Source of the DNA: Streptomyces sp. NBC_00234
GTDB taxonomy: Bacteria > Actinomycetota > Actinomycetes > Streptomycetales > Streptomycetaceae
Reading direction: 5' to 3'
DNA length: 64,000 nucleotides
NCBI RefSeq assembly: GCF_036195325.1
Contig: NZ_CP108101.1
Coordinates: forward strand, 3,534,001 to 3,598,000
Each line of letters starts with the position of its first letter. Position 1 is the stretch's first letter. This document shows, in pieces, positions 23,313 through 27,523 of the stretch. Under the pieces are notes generated by a model. The model worked only from the letters and a program-made list of their open reading frames with translations. It was not told the origin of the DNA and did not search any database. A program made the translations under genes and the position numbers.

Positions 23313-23720
23313 ATGCTCAGGGCCTTGATCTATCTTCTGCCGCTGGCACTGACGATCTACGCGTTCATCGACTGTCTGAACACCCCGGAGGACGAGGCCA
23401 AGCACCTTCCGAAGCTGGCCTGGGTCTTCATCATTCTGCTGTTCTGGATCGTGGGCCCGATCGTGTGGTTCGCCGCGGGCAAGATGCGCGTGGCGCCCGA
23501 CGGCGGCCGTACGCCCTCCGAGTGGCACCGCAACCACCGCCACACGTGGGTGGCGCCCGACGACAATCCCGACTTCCTCAAGTCGCTCAAGGACGAGAAC
23601 GAGAAGGACGAGTCCGTCCTCAAGGACTGGGAGGCGGACCTGCGCCGCCGCGAGGAAGAGCTGAAGCGCCGTGACGCGGAGGGCGGAAGCCCGGAGGACC
23701 CGACGCCGCCGAAGGGCTGA
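23313..23720 (+). CDS. PLDc_N domain small membrane protein
   Basis: A 135-residue protein: N-terminal hydrophobic helix (ALIYLLPLALTIYAFIDCL), a short polar stretch with TPEDEAKHLPK, a second helix (WVFIILLFWIVGPIVWFAAG), then a charged tail ending in a coiled-coil-like EADLRRREEELKRRDAE. This is the phospholipase D-nuclease N-terminal (PLDc_N) membrane domain without any catalytic HKD motif. The tail has the HTWVAPDDNPDFLKSL stretch common in actinobacterial members. The function is unknown; it faces the ATPase gene 121 bases downstream on the same strand. Confidence 0.82.
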   Translation: MLRALIYLLPLALTIYAFIDCLNTPEDEAKHLPKLAWVFIILLFWIVGPIVWFAAGKMRVAPDGGRTPSEWHRNHRHTWVAPDDNPDFLKSLKDENEKDESVLKDWEADLRRREEELKRRDAEGGSPEDPTPPKG

Positions 23721-23841: not shown

Positions 23842-25971
23842 GTGGACAGAGAGCTGTACGGACGCGAGGCGATTTTCGGCAACGACGGCCTGGCGGCACG
23901 TCTGACAGGTCTCACTCCGTACGGCTCGGCCAAGACGCCGTACGAGCACCGCGACGATCCGCCGGTGGTCGTGCTGACCGGTGGCCGCGGCATGGGCAAG
24001 ACCGCGACGCTCAAGCAACTGCGCCATGTGTACCGGGAGATCACCCCGGTCGCGCTGGTCGACTGCGAGGCGGTCGCGCCGCCGGAGGATCCCGGGCCGG
24101 GCTGGACGCCGGTGACCGGGGCGCTGCCCGCGCTGGCCGTCCAGCTGACGCCGAGGGTGCGGGCGGCGAAGCCGGTGCAGTTCCCCCGACTCAGCCTGGG
24201 TCTGGTGGCGGTCGCGTCCATCGCCTGGAGCCGTGAGGACGAGACGCAGGCCCAGCGCGATCTCCAGTCCCTCGGGCCGGTGCTCGCGACCGTGGACTCC
24301 AGGCCGGGTGCGGCGCAGGGCTGGGTCACCAAGGTGCTGACGAAGCTGGCGGCTACGGCGTTCGACGCGGTCGCGCCGCTGGCCGGGCTGATCGCCGAGG
24401 CGACCGTGGAGTCGGTGCTGGAAGAGACGTTCAGCCGCTTCCAGCGCCGCACCGTCGACTGGTACGGCGCCTATCCGCACGCCGGGGGCGACGGCCGGAT
24501 CGGGCTGCGGCAGCTCGCGGTCGACTTCGAGCGGGGCGGGGATCTGCGCAGGCGGGCCGAGGACCATCTGGTCGGGGCGCTGGTCGAGGACCTCTACCGG
24601 GCCTACCGGGGCACGGCGCTGGGCATGCGCCGGGGCCGTCCCGTGATCCTGCTGGACAACGCCCACAACGCGCTGGGCCGGCAGCTGGTCGAGCCGGTGC
24701 TGCGGGCACGGGCGTCGGGCCGCCGCGACCAGATCGTCTTCTTCGCCGCCTCCCGCTCCAGCGACCACGAGGGGCTGCGGCACGCCGTCCACCACCGGCT
24801 GCCGGAGGTGGCGCACGCCTCGCACTGGACCCGCGGCACGGAGGTGACCTCCGGCATCCTCGCGGTGGGGCTCACCCCGCTGAGCGCCGCGCACGCCCAG
24901 GCCGCGTTCGAGCGCCACGACCCGGGGGCCCGTACACCGGCCGGCCTGGCGCGCGGGGTGCACCGGCTGACGGGGGGCCGGCCGCTGGGGATCGCGCTGT
25001 TCGCCCAGGCGGCGGGCGAGGCGGAGCGGCCCGGTTCTCTGGTGCCGGGCGCGCTGCTGGACTGCACGGTGCAGGTGCGTGAGGACCGGCAGCCGGTGCG
25101 GCTGGCGGACGAGCTGCTGGAGCGGCTGCTGCCGGGGCAGCGCCTGGAGGTCCTGAGTGTGCTGGCCGCCGCGCACGGCGAGGAGTCGGCCAGGCTGCTG
25201 GCCGGGCTCCGGCTGCGGGGCGAGTCCCTGGACGGCGACGTGGCCCTGCGGGTACGGGACGTGCTGCGCGCGGAGGACTGGCGGGTCGGTCCCGAGTACT
25301 TCGTCGGCGACCCGTTGCTGCGCTCGCTGCTGCTGCACCGGCTGCGGTTCCAGGACGACGACCATCCCCGGTACGCGGTGTGGCGCGCGGTGCACGAGTC
25401 GCTGCGCGAGGTCTACCAGACGGGGAACGTCGCGAGCGCCCCGCACCGGCTGCACGAGGAGCTGGTGCTGGGCCGGGAGGCGGCGTGCGTGACGCATCTG
25501 CGGGTGCGTTTCCCGCGACCCGACGTGCCGGGCTGGCTGGGCGAACTGCGGCTGATCGCCTCGGCGCCGTATCCGCGTGAGCGTGCGGCGCGCGGTCCCG
25601 ACCCGCGGCGGGCGGTCGCGCTGGGCCAGGACGTGGCCGGAGGGCCGCTGCCCGAGGAACGGACCGGTCTTGCCGGGCTCGACGAGGAGGCCGCGGAGCT
25701 CCAGCTGCGGATGCGCCGGCTGCTGCACGCGGTGTGGCTGCTGTCCGATCCGCTGGCCCTGCCGGACGACGAGGTGACCGACAAGATGGCGCACGAGCTG
25801 CGGCAGCTGTCCGGCAGGCACCTCACGGGCAACGCGGTGCTGTGGGACGCGGCGACGCACTGGCCGCGGGACATCAGGGCGTGGCGATCGCTGTCCATGC
25901 CGCCGGGGGTCCCGCAGGACGGGGCGCCGGACCGACGGAACCGACAGGGGGACGGTGGCTCGGATGCGTAA
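23842..25971 (+). CDS. Large P-loop ATPase of unrecognised family
   Basis: A 709-residue cytoplasmic protein. A Walker A motif GGRGMGKT lies at residues 47-54 after strand PPVVVLT, and a Walker B-like VILLDNAHN at about 268-276, with Asn in place of the second acidic residue. The AAA/STAND-like core spans roughly 40-340 with a long helical insert (about 140-200); the remainder is Leu/Arg-rich and helical with no domain I can name. There is no HTH, TIR or protease motif. GTG at 23842 has only a weak ribosome site. The last 8 bases overlap the sensor gene, so the two proteins are likely made together and may interact. Confidence 0.8.
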   Translation: MDRELYGREAIFGNDGLAARLTGLTPYGSAKTPYEHRDDPPVVVLTGGRGMGKTATLKQLRHVYREITPVALVDCEAVAPPEDPGPGWTPVTGALPALAVQLTPRVRAAKPVQFPRLSLGLVAVASIAWSREDETQAQRDLQSLGPVLATVDSRPGAAQGWVTKVLTKLAATAFDAVAPLAGLIAEATVESVLEETFSRFQRRTVDWYGAYPHAGGDGRIGLRQLAVDFERGGDLRRRAEDHLVGALVEDLYRAYRGTALGMRRGRPVILLDNAHNALGRQLVEPVLRARASGRRDQIVFFAASRSSDHEGLRHAVHHRLPEVAHASHWTRGTEVTSGILAVGLTPLSAAHAQAAFERHDPGARTPAGLARGVHRLTGGRPLGIALFAQAAGEAERPGSLVPGALLDCTVQVREDRQPVRLADELLERLLPGQRLEVLSVLAAAHGEESARLLAGLRLRGESLDGDVALRVRDVLRAEDWRVGPEYFVGDPLLRSLLLHRLRFQDDDHPRYAVWRAVHESLREVYQTGNVASAPHRLHEELVLGREAACVTHLRVRFPRPDVPGWLGELRLIASAPYPRERAARGPDPRRAVALGQDVAGGPLPEERTGLAGLDEEAAELQLRMRRLLHAVWLLSDPLALPDDEVTDKMAHELRQLSGRHLTGNAVLWDAATHWPRDIRAWRSLSMPPGVPQDGAPDRRNRQGDGGSDA

Positions 25972-27523
25972 TCCGCTGCGTTATCGCGTCTGGTACACGA
26001 CCCGGCAGAGGATCGTCACGACGGTCGTCGTGGCGGCGCTGGTGACGGGCACCGGCTGGTACGGCATCGACCGGGCGACCACGCCGGAGGACCGGAGCTG
26101 CGTGCCGGGTGTGGAACGTCCGCAGGGCAGCGACGAGTGCGTGGGTGTCTCCGGTTCGGGTTACGACTTCGGGATGAAGCAGCTGACGGAGGTCGCCTCG
26201 GCGATCGGCCGGGAGAACCGGAGCCTGAAGGCGGGCGAGTACGCGACGGTCGCCCTGCTGCTGCCCCTGACCTCGACCGACGGGTCCATGGGACGGAAGA
26301 TGCAGCGGGAGCTGCAGGGTGCGTTCGCCGAGCAGTACCGGGCCAACCGTCTGTCGAACTCCCAGGTGCCGAAGATCCGGCTGGTGCTCGCCAACACCGG
26401 TAAGAACAACCTGTTCTGGAAGCCGACGGTCGAGCGGCTGAAGACCATGACGGACGCGCCCGACCATCTGCGCGCGGTGTCCGGGGTCGCCACCAGCAGC
26501 TCCGAGGTGAAGCTCGCGGTCCAGGCGCTGACGAAGGCGCGGATCGCCGTCGTCGGCACCACGATCACGGCCGACGACATCGCCAACGGGCCCGGCGGGG
26601 ACCCGTTCCCGGGGCTGGCGCGGGTCTCGCCCACCAACCGGGACGAGGCGCGGGCGCTGGCACAGTTCGGCAAGGTGGAGGCCGACAAGGCGCTGCTGGT
26701 CGAGGACACGCGTACCGGCGACCACTACACGGACACGCTGAAGGCGGCGTTCACCGCGCTGGTGAAGGGCACCAAGTACGAGGCGCAGCTGTTCACCTCG
26801 CCCCCGGACGCGACGGACGAGGGCACCACGTCCAACACGTTCAAGCAGATCACGCACCTGCTCTGCGACACGGACGCGGAGACGGTGTTCTTCGCCGGGC
26901 GGCACACGCAGTTGCGGCAGTTCATCAACGAGCTGGGGCGGCGCGGCTGCCAGAACCGGGCGTTCACGGTGCTCACCGGCGACGAGGGCTCGTACCTCGG
27001 TGGGGACGAGAAGCTGGACCGGAGCGCGCTCAGCCGGAAGGTCACCGTCCGCTACGCCTCGCTGGCCCATCCGGACGCCTGGCTGGACGGGAAGGACAGG
27101 AAGGTGCCGACGACGGGCGGTTCCCCGGAAGACTTCCGGGACTTCCAGCGGCTGCTGGCCCAGGTTTCCAAGAAGCCGGCCGGCCCGATCGGTCCGACGG
27201 GCCGGGACACCATGACGGACGGCCAGGTGATCATCGCGTACGACGCGATGGCGACGGCCGTGCACGGCATCCGGCAGGCGACCCCGGACGGCAAGCGGCT
27301 GCCGACCAAGACCGATGTGGGCGGCCAGTGGCCGCAGGTGAAGTCCTCGCTGAAGGTCGCGGGGGCGAGCGGCTGGATCTGCCTGGACAACCACGGCAAC
27401 CCGTACAACAAGGCGGTTCCGGTGGTGGAGCTGACGGACCAGGGCGTGCAGCGGTTCGTGGCGATCGCCTGGCCGGAGGGCCGGGCGCCGGACCGGCGCT
27501 GCCTGCCGCCGTCGGGGCGCTAG
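25964..27523 (+). CDS. Membrane-anchored type I periplasmic-binding-fold protein
   Basis: A 519-residue protein with one N-terminal transmembrane helix (IVTTVVVAALVTGTGWYGI) and an extracellular region resembling the LivJ/receptor-family ligand-binding fold: YATVALLLPLTSTDGSMG, LRAVSGVATSSSEVKLAV, RVSPTNRDEARALAQFG, ETVFFAGRHTQLRQFINELG and TDGQVIIAYDAMATAVHGIR. Six or more cysteines suggest disulfides outside the cell. It has no lipobox and no permease or ATPase of ABC type nearby, so a sensor role is likelier than transport. ATG at 25964 is favoured over GTG at 25955 by spacing from AGGGGGAC. Overlap with the P-loop ATPase gene is 8 bases. Confidence 0.8.
   Translation: MRNPLRYRVWYTTRQRIVTTVVVAALVTGTGWYGIDRATTPEDRSCVPGVERPQGSDECVGVSGSGYDFGMKQLTEVASAIGRENRSLKAGEYATVALLLPLTSTDGSMGRKMQRELQGAFAEQYRANRLSNSQVPKIRLVLANTGKNNLFWKPTVERLKTMTDAPDHLRAVSGVATSSSEVKLAVQALTKARIAVVGTTITADDIANGPGGDPFPGLARVSPTNRDEARALAQFGKVEADKALLVEDTRTGDHYTDTLKAAFTALVKGTKYEAQLFTSPPDATDEGTTSNTFKQITHLLCDTDAETVFFAGRHTQLRQFINELGRRGCQNRAFTVLTGDEGSYLGGDEKLDRSALSRKVTVRYASLAHPDAWLDGKDRKVPTTGGSPEDFRDFQRLLAQVSKKPAGPIGPTGRDTMTDGQVIIAYDAMATAVHGIRQATPDGKRLPTKTDVGGQWPQVKSSLKVAGASGWICLDNHGNPYNKAVPVVELTDQGVQRFVAIAWPEGRAPDRRCLPPSGR

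Follow-up and report, generated by a model that had tools for sequence, protein, structure and literature searches.

A STAND-like NTPase gene tightly coupled to a gene for a membrane-anchored Venus flytrap receptor in Streptomyces: a candidate ligand-gated switch

In a stretch of 64,000 nucleotides from Streptomyces sp. NBC_00234 (contig NZ_CP108101.1, positions 3,534,001 to 3,598,000; hereafter the window), two genes overlap by a few bases, the first encoding a P-loop ATPase (P1) and the second a protein with an extracytoplasmic ligand-binding domain (P2). This arrangement raises the question of whether the two proteins act together and, if so, whether they carry a signal, defend the cell or assist the uptake of a compound. 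We consider it probable, at roughly 0.6, that P1 and P2 together make up a single transmembrane signalling device, a ligand-gated STAND switch. The Venus flytrap domain of P2, situated outside the membrane, would bind a small molecule, most likely an amino acid or an amino-acid-like compound, and its closure would be relayed through the single P2 membrane helix to P1. Held near the membrane, the STAND NTPase P1 would then change its nucleotide state or oligomerise, and the switched P1 would engage a cytoplasmic partner. The two folds, the single-helix anchoring, the coupling of the genes in Streptomyces and the cis fusions of both modules were computed here; we infer a direct P1-P2 contact, the ligand class, the direction of gating, the use of ATP and the output. 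The main features, in window coordinates, are as follows.

23842..25971, + strand: P1, STAND-like P-loop NTPase of 709 amino acids, GTG start and TAA end; Walker A at residues 47-54, Walker B at D272, GGRP at 378-381, then an all-helical C-terminal part
25964..25971, + strand: overlap of the P1 end and the P2 start, 8 bases
25964..27523, + strand: P2, membrane-anchored extracytoplasmic type I periplasmic-binding (Venus flytrap) receptor of 519 amino acids; membrane helix at about residues 13-39; conserved C46, C59, C301, C329 and R313; putative ligand residues S178, T202 and Y255

Both genes were called by the codon model, adjacent on the + strand. The P2 open reading frame opens with GTG at 25955, and the codon model prefers the ATG at 25964, giving exactly the 8-base overlap that a preliminary description of this locus, made by a model from the sequence, had reported. 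The overlap suggests translational coupling of P1 and P2.

Predicted folds of P1 and P2

P1 is indeed a 709-residue ATPase with a Walker A motif, as first described, carrying GGRGMGKT at residues 47-54 and the Walker B aspartate D272 followed by N. This DN pair had been called unusual, which has to be revised, since it is the commonest Walker B form in the P1 family (37 of 47 members). The Walker B aspartate is kept in all 47 proteins, and the position of the Walker A lysine is occupied by K in 30, A in 10 and R in 7. A GxP-like motif after the core domain is a mark of STAND proteins; the corresponding GGRP of P1 has its P in 42 and its first G in 25 of the 47 proteins. In a subgroup of ten (L084, L085, L108-L115), GSGAS replaces the Walker A lysine motif, yet the Walker B aspartate and a P2 partner are still present.

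Pfam places AAA_16 on P1 with an E of 3.7e-6, below the cut-off of that family, and nSTAND_NTPase5 is among further sub-threshold matches. The structure model of P1, built from 55 aligned sequences, has a mean predicted local distance difference test score (pLDDT) of 88.3, and its weak Foldseek matches include MalT and plant NLRs. Upon VIA re-alignment the best row was NRC4 (Z 11.8, root-mean-square deviation 5.1, 312 residues), followed by archaeal paby2304 (11.6), WRR4A (11.5), RPP1 (11.5) and SSO1545 (11.1). Eight plant NLR rows and two archaeal ATPases make up the top ten (Z 10.6-11.8, over 293-319 aligned residues), and CED-4 and the Apaf-1 apoptosome score 10.4 and 9.4, respectively; the absence of a family from these lists does not exclude that family. 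On the basis of this model we take P1 for a STAND NTPase, in line with the STAND-like ATPase proposed at the outset, though its lead over other AAA+ relatives is small. Known STAND NTPases (plant NLRs, CED-4/Apaf-1, MalT, paby2304, SSO1545) likewise have a P-loop fold followed by helical domains and supply the top VIA rows, and the window P1 combines three of their marks, namely the fold, the Walker A and B motifs and the GxP-like motif. It differs from them in that no effector or DNA-binding domain of its own was found and that the sensor is a separate membrane protein; moreover, Walker A is altered in many P1 relatives and absent from the fused ones. Insertion of P1 itself into the membrane was rejected, as no segment exceeds the Kyte-Doolittle cut in the window protein (6 of 47 in the family have one), while 16 of the 29 group-0 fusions described below contain two such segments in the equivalent region.

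P2 possesses one hydrophobic segment (residues 17-35), modelled as a helix spanning residues 13-39 and followed by a two-lobe domain; the mean pLDDT is 82.6, with the helix itself at modest confidence. ANF_receptor matches only at E 0.13, below its cut-off. Nevertheless, the best VIA rows are LivJ (4gnr, Z 29.9) and LivK (3td9, 29.5), with AmiC at 24.1, and a profile of 28 P2 sequences retrieves a Leu/Ile/Val-binding protein homologue (5.3e-9) and mGluR5 (4.5e-7). The single transmembrane helix and amino-acid-receptor-type domain of the preliminary description are thereby borne out, and the profile searches, fold searches and structure predictions, which it had proposed as checks, back the predicted folds of both proteins.

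Among 140 P2 domains, R313 is invariant, and C301 and C329 are kept in 139 and 138, respectively. S occupies position 178 in 112 of them, T or S position 202 in 87 and 46, and Y or F position 255 in 128 and 11. The 66 P2 proteins under 650 amino acids (including L091, L128, L325 and L329, which are fusions or not classed) have S at 178 in 65, T, S or A at 202 in 51, 9 and 6, and Y or F at 255 in 58 and 8. S178, T202 and Y255 align in the profile alignment to positions of mGluR5 that we take to be ligand contacts, and on this sequence alignment our guess is that P2 binds an amino acid or an amino-acid-like compound. P2 thus shares the type I fold and largely keeps the ligand-site positions of LivJ, LivK, AmiC and the mGluR ligand domain, whereas it is anchored by one N-terminal helix, is coupled to a STAND-like ATPase and has its own signature of conserved cysteines and R313. 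An N-terminal hydrophobic segment is present in 47 of 51 P2 proteins, and a lipobox-like motif in just one of the 51. A lipoprotein anchor is usual for the substrate-binding proteins of ATP-binding cassette (ABC) importers in Gram-positives.

Coupling of the two genes within and outside Streptomyces

At a match threshold of E <= 1e-5, P1 was found in 63 and P2 in 109 of 150 Streptomyces genomes. After 78 P1 pieces had been merged to 72 genes, 65 of these were followed by P2 on the same strand; the other seven comprise two at contig ends (G001, G139), two truncated P1 genes (G024, G128) and three full-length ones (G087, G108, G109). Seen from the receptor side, 65 of the 143 P2 places adjoin a P1 gene detected by BLAST. 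The other 78 were all examined: 29 lie beside a divergent P1 recognised by profile (one recovered separately), 45 are fused to a STAND-like half, 3 to a region of helix-turn-helix (HTH) type and 1 to Peptidase_C14. Altogether, 94 of the 143 places stand beside a P1-type gene, and in these 150 genomes none of the 143 lacks a signalling partner.

A contig scan that kept 80 of 245 relatives, nearly all on contigs labelled Streptomyces, gave a similar picture: P1 lies directly upstream of P2 in 78 of the 80 loci, the other two being cut by contig ends, and the gap in the 78 ranges from -34 to +129 bases. P1 and P2 distances across 44 pairs correlate with r 0.65, compared with a maximum of 0.146 in 1000 permutations, species relatedness being uncorrected. 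An independent P1-profile search matched 42 of 61 of these Streptomyces genomes. As to gene calling, P1 of L117 was missed by the gene caller and recovered with tblastn, and the starts in L322, L326 and L142 are doubtful. Taken together, the genetic coupling of P1 and P2 in Streptomyces is strong.

P2 reaches well beyond this genus, occurring in 59 of 296 genomes and 24 of 114 genera in a class-level sample that includes Streptomyces, and in 45 of 101 genomes in a family sample. From the class-level sample, 40 non-Streptomyces stretches were taken, weaker places and some second places being left out. Seven of them have P1 upstream of P2, and 16 hold STAND-like fusions by profile, with three more by similarity (L313, L316, L322). 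The receptor is joined to a protein kinase (Pfam Pkinase) in L303, L307 and L338 and to a DUF4062-type domain in L324, L327 and L330 (Pfam) and L326 (similarity); L325, at a contig start, and L329, with a run of N, were not classed. Four stretches (L308-L311) hold a stand-alone P2. Eleven genomes (G243, G185, G424, G272, G148, G313, G217, G330, G087, G108, G109) were searched with the P1 profile, which matched G217 and G330, both of which hold pairs, as well as G087, G108 and G109, and found no match in G148 and G313. G185, G243 and G424 each have a further P2 place, in a long open frame, beyond the stretches examined. The coupling is hence strong in Streptomyces and looser outside. Two stretches from outside the genus deserve mention in their own right. 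L305 (4581-10011) contains a single P1 gene followed by two tandem P2 genes, a possible receptor duplication, and L333 (683-3013) carries TIR_2 on the receptor chain (E 2.5e-34), which makes it a candidate for a bacterial TIR receptor whose ligand domain lies outside the cytoplasm.

Fusions of the receptor module

The STAND-like fusions of Streptomyces fall into three groups of 29, 12 and 3 proteins, whose N-terminal halves align with the first 385 to 399 columns of P1 at hhalign probabilities of 99.4, 99.1 and 99.5, respectively; the 45th fusion was assigned by profile. Three fused genes were also matched in the P1-profile genome search (E 4.6e-22, 7.5e-14 and 8.6e-11). The Walker A pattern G4GK[ST] occurs in 26 of 47 stand-alone P1 proteins and in the N-terminal half of none of 47 long fused proteins, a set including L121, L122 and the doubtful L142. 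Cis fusion is thus accompanied by loss of the canonical P-loop.

Among the other fusions, an HTH-type N-terminus was recognised in L091 by Pfam and in L122 and L128 by alignment; the start of L128 had been cut by the gene caller, and it is an HTH-type fusion rather than an orphan P2. In L121 (3981-6704), an EACC1 gene (E 8.3e-22) is followed by a protein with a caspase domain (Peptidase_C14, E 9.4e-11), a transmembrane part and a Venus flytrap domain. Four Streptomyces loci (L092, L093, L095, L096) have a fused STAND-like/receptor gene of 960-970 amino acids beside the conserved clusters c23-c25, and the ATPase-like half of each of these fusions contains two additional hydrophobic segments.

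Surroundings of the pair and rival explanations

The pair is flanked by menaquinone genes, matching NCBIfam models named after SCO4490, SCO4491 and SCO4494, and by a cytochrome c biogenesis block (ResB, Cytochrom_C_asm, DsbD_TM, thioredoxin-like). As the preliminary description had stated, no permease, kinase or HTH gene was found among the neighbouring window genes scanned; one open reading frame scanned there, of 578 amino acids, is longer than the likely AHSA1 gene of 179 amino acids. Just upstream of P1 lies one further gene.

23313-23720: PLDc_N gene, Pfam E 1.1e-11

This adjacent gene is real, but its suggested role as a third component was rejected: no more than 3 genes belong to its cluster in the 40 clustered loci to which the comparison refers (the window's own gene being uncalled there, and the 80 contig-scan loci lying outside it), and in relatives it sits two genes upstream of P1 (L062) or about 6 kb away (L061). 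Paralogues were likewise rejected, since P1 and P2 give one match each in the window's own genome. A phage origin was dismissed, with no phage match found for P2, as was a plasmid origin, with one plasmid record for P1 and four for P2, the identities all being below 60% and the records 1.8 to 11.9 Mb long. Around 30 pairs, 119 of 127 neighbour genes were scanned, the eight from L067 and L083, where there is no pair, being left out. Three of the 119 are NNH1-NACHT genes, located upstream of three divergent pairs (L070, L071, L078) and belonging to one sequence cluster.

Since P2 has the fold of branched-chain amino-acid binding proteins, which normally serve importers, it might be an anchored substrate-binding protein of an ABC importer encoded elsewhere, with P1 as an unrelated or accessory ATPase; four actinomycete genomes with P2 and no P1 match would fit this. 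Against it, P2 shows the type I fold of such proteins without a linked permease or importer ATPase among the neighbours scanned and without a lipoprotein anchor, the lipobox being so rare. ABC_tran is found in 3 of the 119 neighbours and importer permeases are absent from the 25 commonest of 132 families, while each of the 143 P2 places in Streptomyces adjoins, or is fused with, a signalling domain, STAND-like or other. We therefore regard this explanation as quite improbable, and P2 as unlikely to be part of a distant ABC transporter. Defence or programmed death, in which an outside threat is detected and P1 elicits a toxic response through a partner, has somewhat more in its favour: the STAND-like fold of P1 recurs in other STAND conflict systems, P2 relatives carry TIR and caspase domains, and NNH1-NACHT genes neighbour 3 of the 30 pairs. 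A two-gene actinobacterial membrane conflict system of EACC1 and caspase was described by Kaur et al. 2020 (PMC7159879), who report caspase proteins with transmembrane helices and a downstream extracellular periplasmic-binding protein (PBP) domain, so that a PBP domain in such a system is already known. In this System 4 a 5' EACC1 gene is combined with a 3' gene whose product begins with a caspase or cyclase domain. The P2 relative L121, with EACC1 just upstream, fits it; in contrast, the window pair has neither EACC1 nor caspase, and its STAND-like NTPase is a separate 5' gene. Moreover, no PADLOC model matched P1 or P2 at E <= 0.01, phage matches for P2 are lacking, menaquinone and cytochrome c biogenesis genes flank the pair, a context that several relatives keep in part, and the HTH and kinase outputs among the fusions are regulatory. 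A defence role thus seems unlikely to us. The preliminary description had proposed a pair, which the linkage (65/72 and 78/80) and the cis fusions support, and had allowed for either a signal or a defence device; for defence there is no direct support, PADLOC giving no model for either protein.

Signalling remains the best reading because several cytoplasmic signalling partners occur, the lipobox is rare (1/51) and no linked importer was found among the neighbours scanned. Several observations nevertheless weigh against a ligand-gated P1-P2 switch. The assignment of P1 is loosened by the Foldseek search, in which its model gave zero matches at E <= 0.001, and by Cdc6/Orc1, which scores Z 10.5, near the STAND rows; no effector domain was recognised in P1. 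At E <= 1e-5, HMMER with the P1 profile detects just 5 of the 45 fusions in Streptomyces, and for most of them the relationship to P1 depends on hhalign; the longer, fused P2 proteins often have N or D at position 178. Not every member can depend on ATP hydrolysis, given A or R at the Walker A lysine in 17 of 47 P1 proteins and the absence of the motif from all 47 long fused proteins. Finally, free separation of the genes, which would have spoken against a pair, is not seen in Streptomyces as a whole, but G087, G108 and G109 have a P1 of full length while nothing in their genomes matches P2, and the genomes of L308-L311 (G243, G185, G424, G272) gave no P1 match. These solo genomes argue against an obligate pairing, and P1 in the former three may work alone or be decaying.

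A comparable route from an amino-acid solute-binding protein to a cytoplasmic enzyme has been proposed for GlnH-GlnX-PknG (PMC6069109). That actinobacterial system likewise uses an amino-acid binding protein as sensor, yet the sensor is a separate lipoprotein acting through a membrane protein on a kinase, while P2 unites receptor and anchor in a single chain and has a STAND-like ATPase as its partner. PMC8195603 contains none of the terms periplasmic, ligand-binding, ANF and PBP, and no published STAND-receptor pair was found in the open-licence literature, mostly represented by titles and abstracts.

More tentatively, at slightly less than an even chance, the window pair may belong to a large, undescribed actinomycete family of mGluR-like Venus flytrap receptors with interchangeable outputs: a STAND ATPase in trans, a STAND-like half in cis that lacks Walker A, a protein kinase, TIR, caspase, HTH or DUF4062. 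Within it, the pair would let an amino-acid-like ligand outside the cell directly gate an NLR-like STAND switch across the membrane. With exceptions such as L090, L129 and L337, the majority of the P1 and P2 proteins scanned score under all Pfam cut-offs and may thus escape annotation pipelines. Most STAND proteins are known as sensors in the cytosol; if the proposed device is real, wiring such a switch to a small-molecule receptor that faces outward would connect NTPases of immune type with the chemistry outside the cell. The fused STAND-like members without a Walker A motif would be natural variants that make the role of the nucleotide in signalling directly testable.

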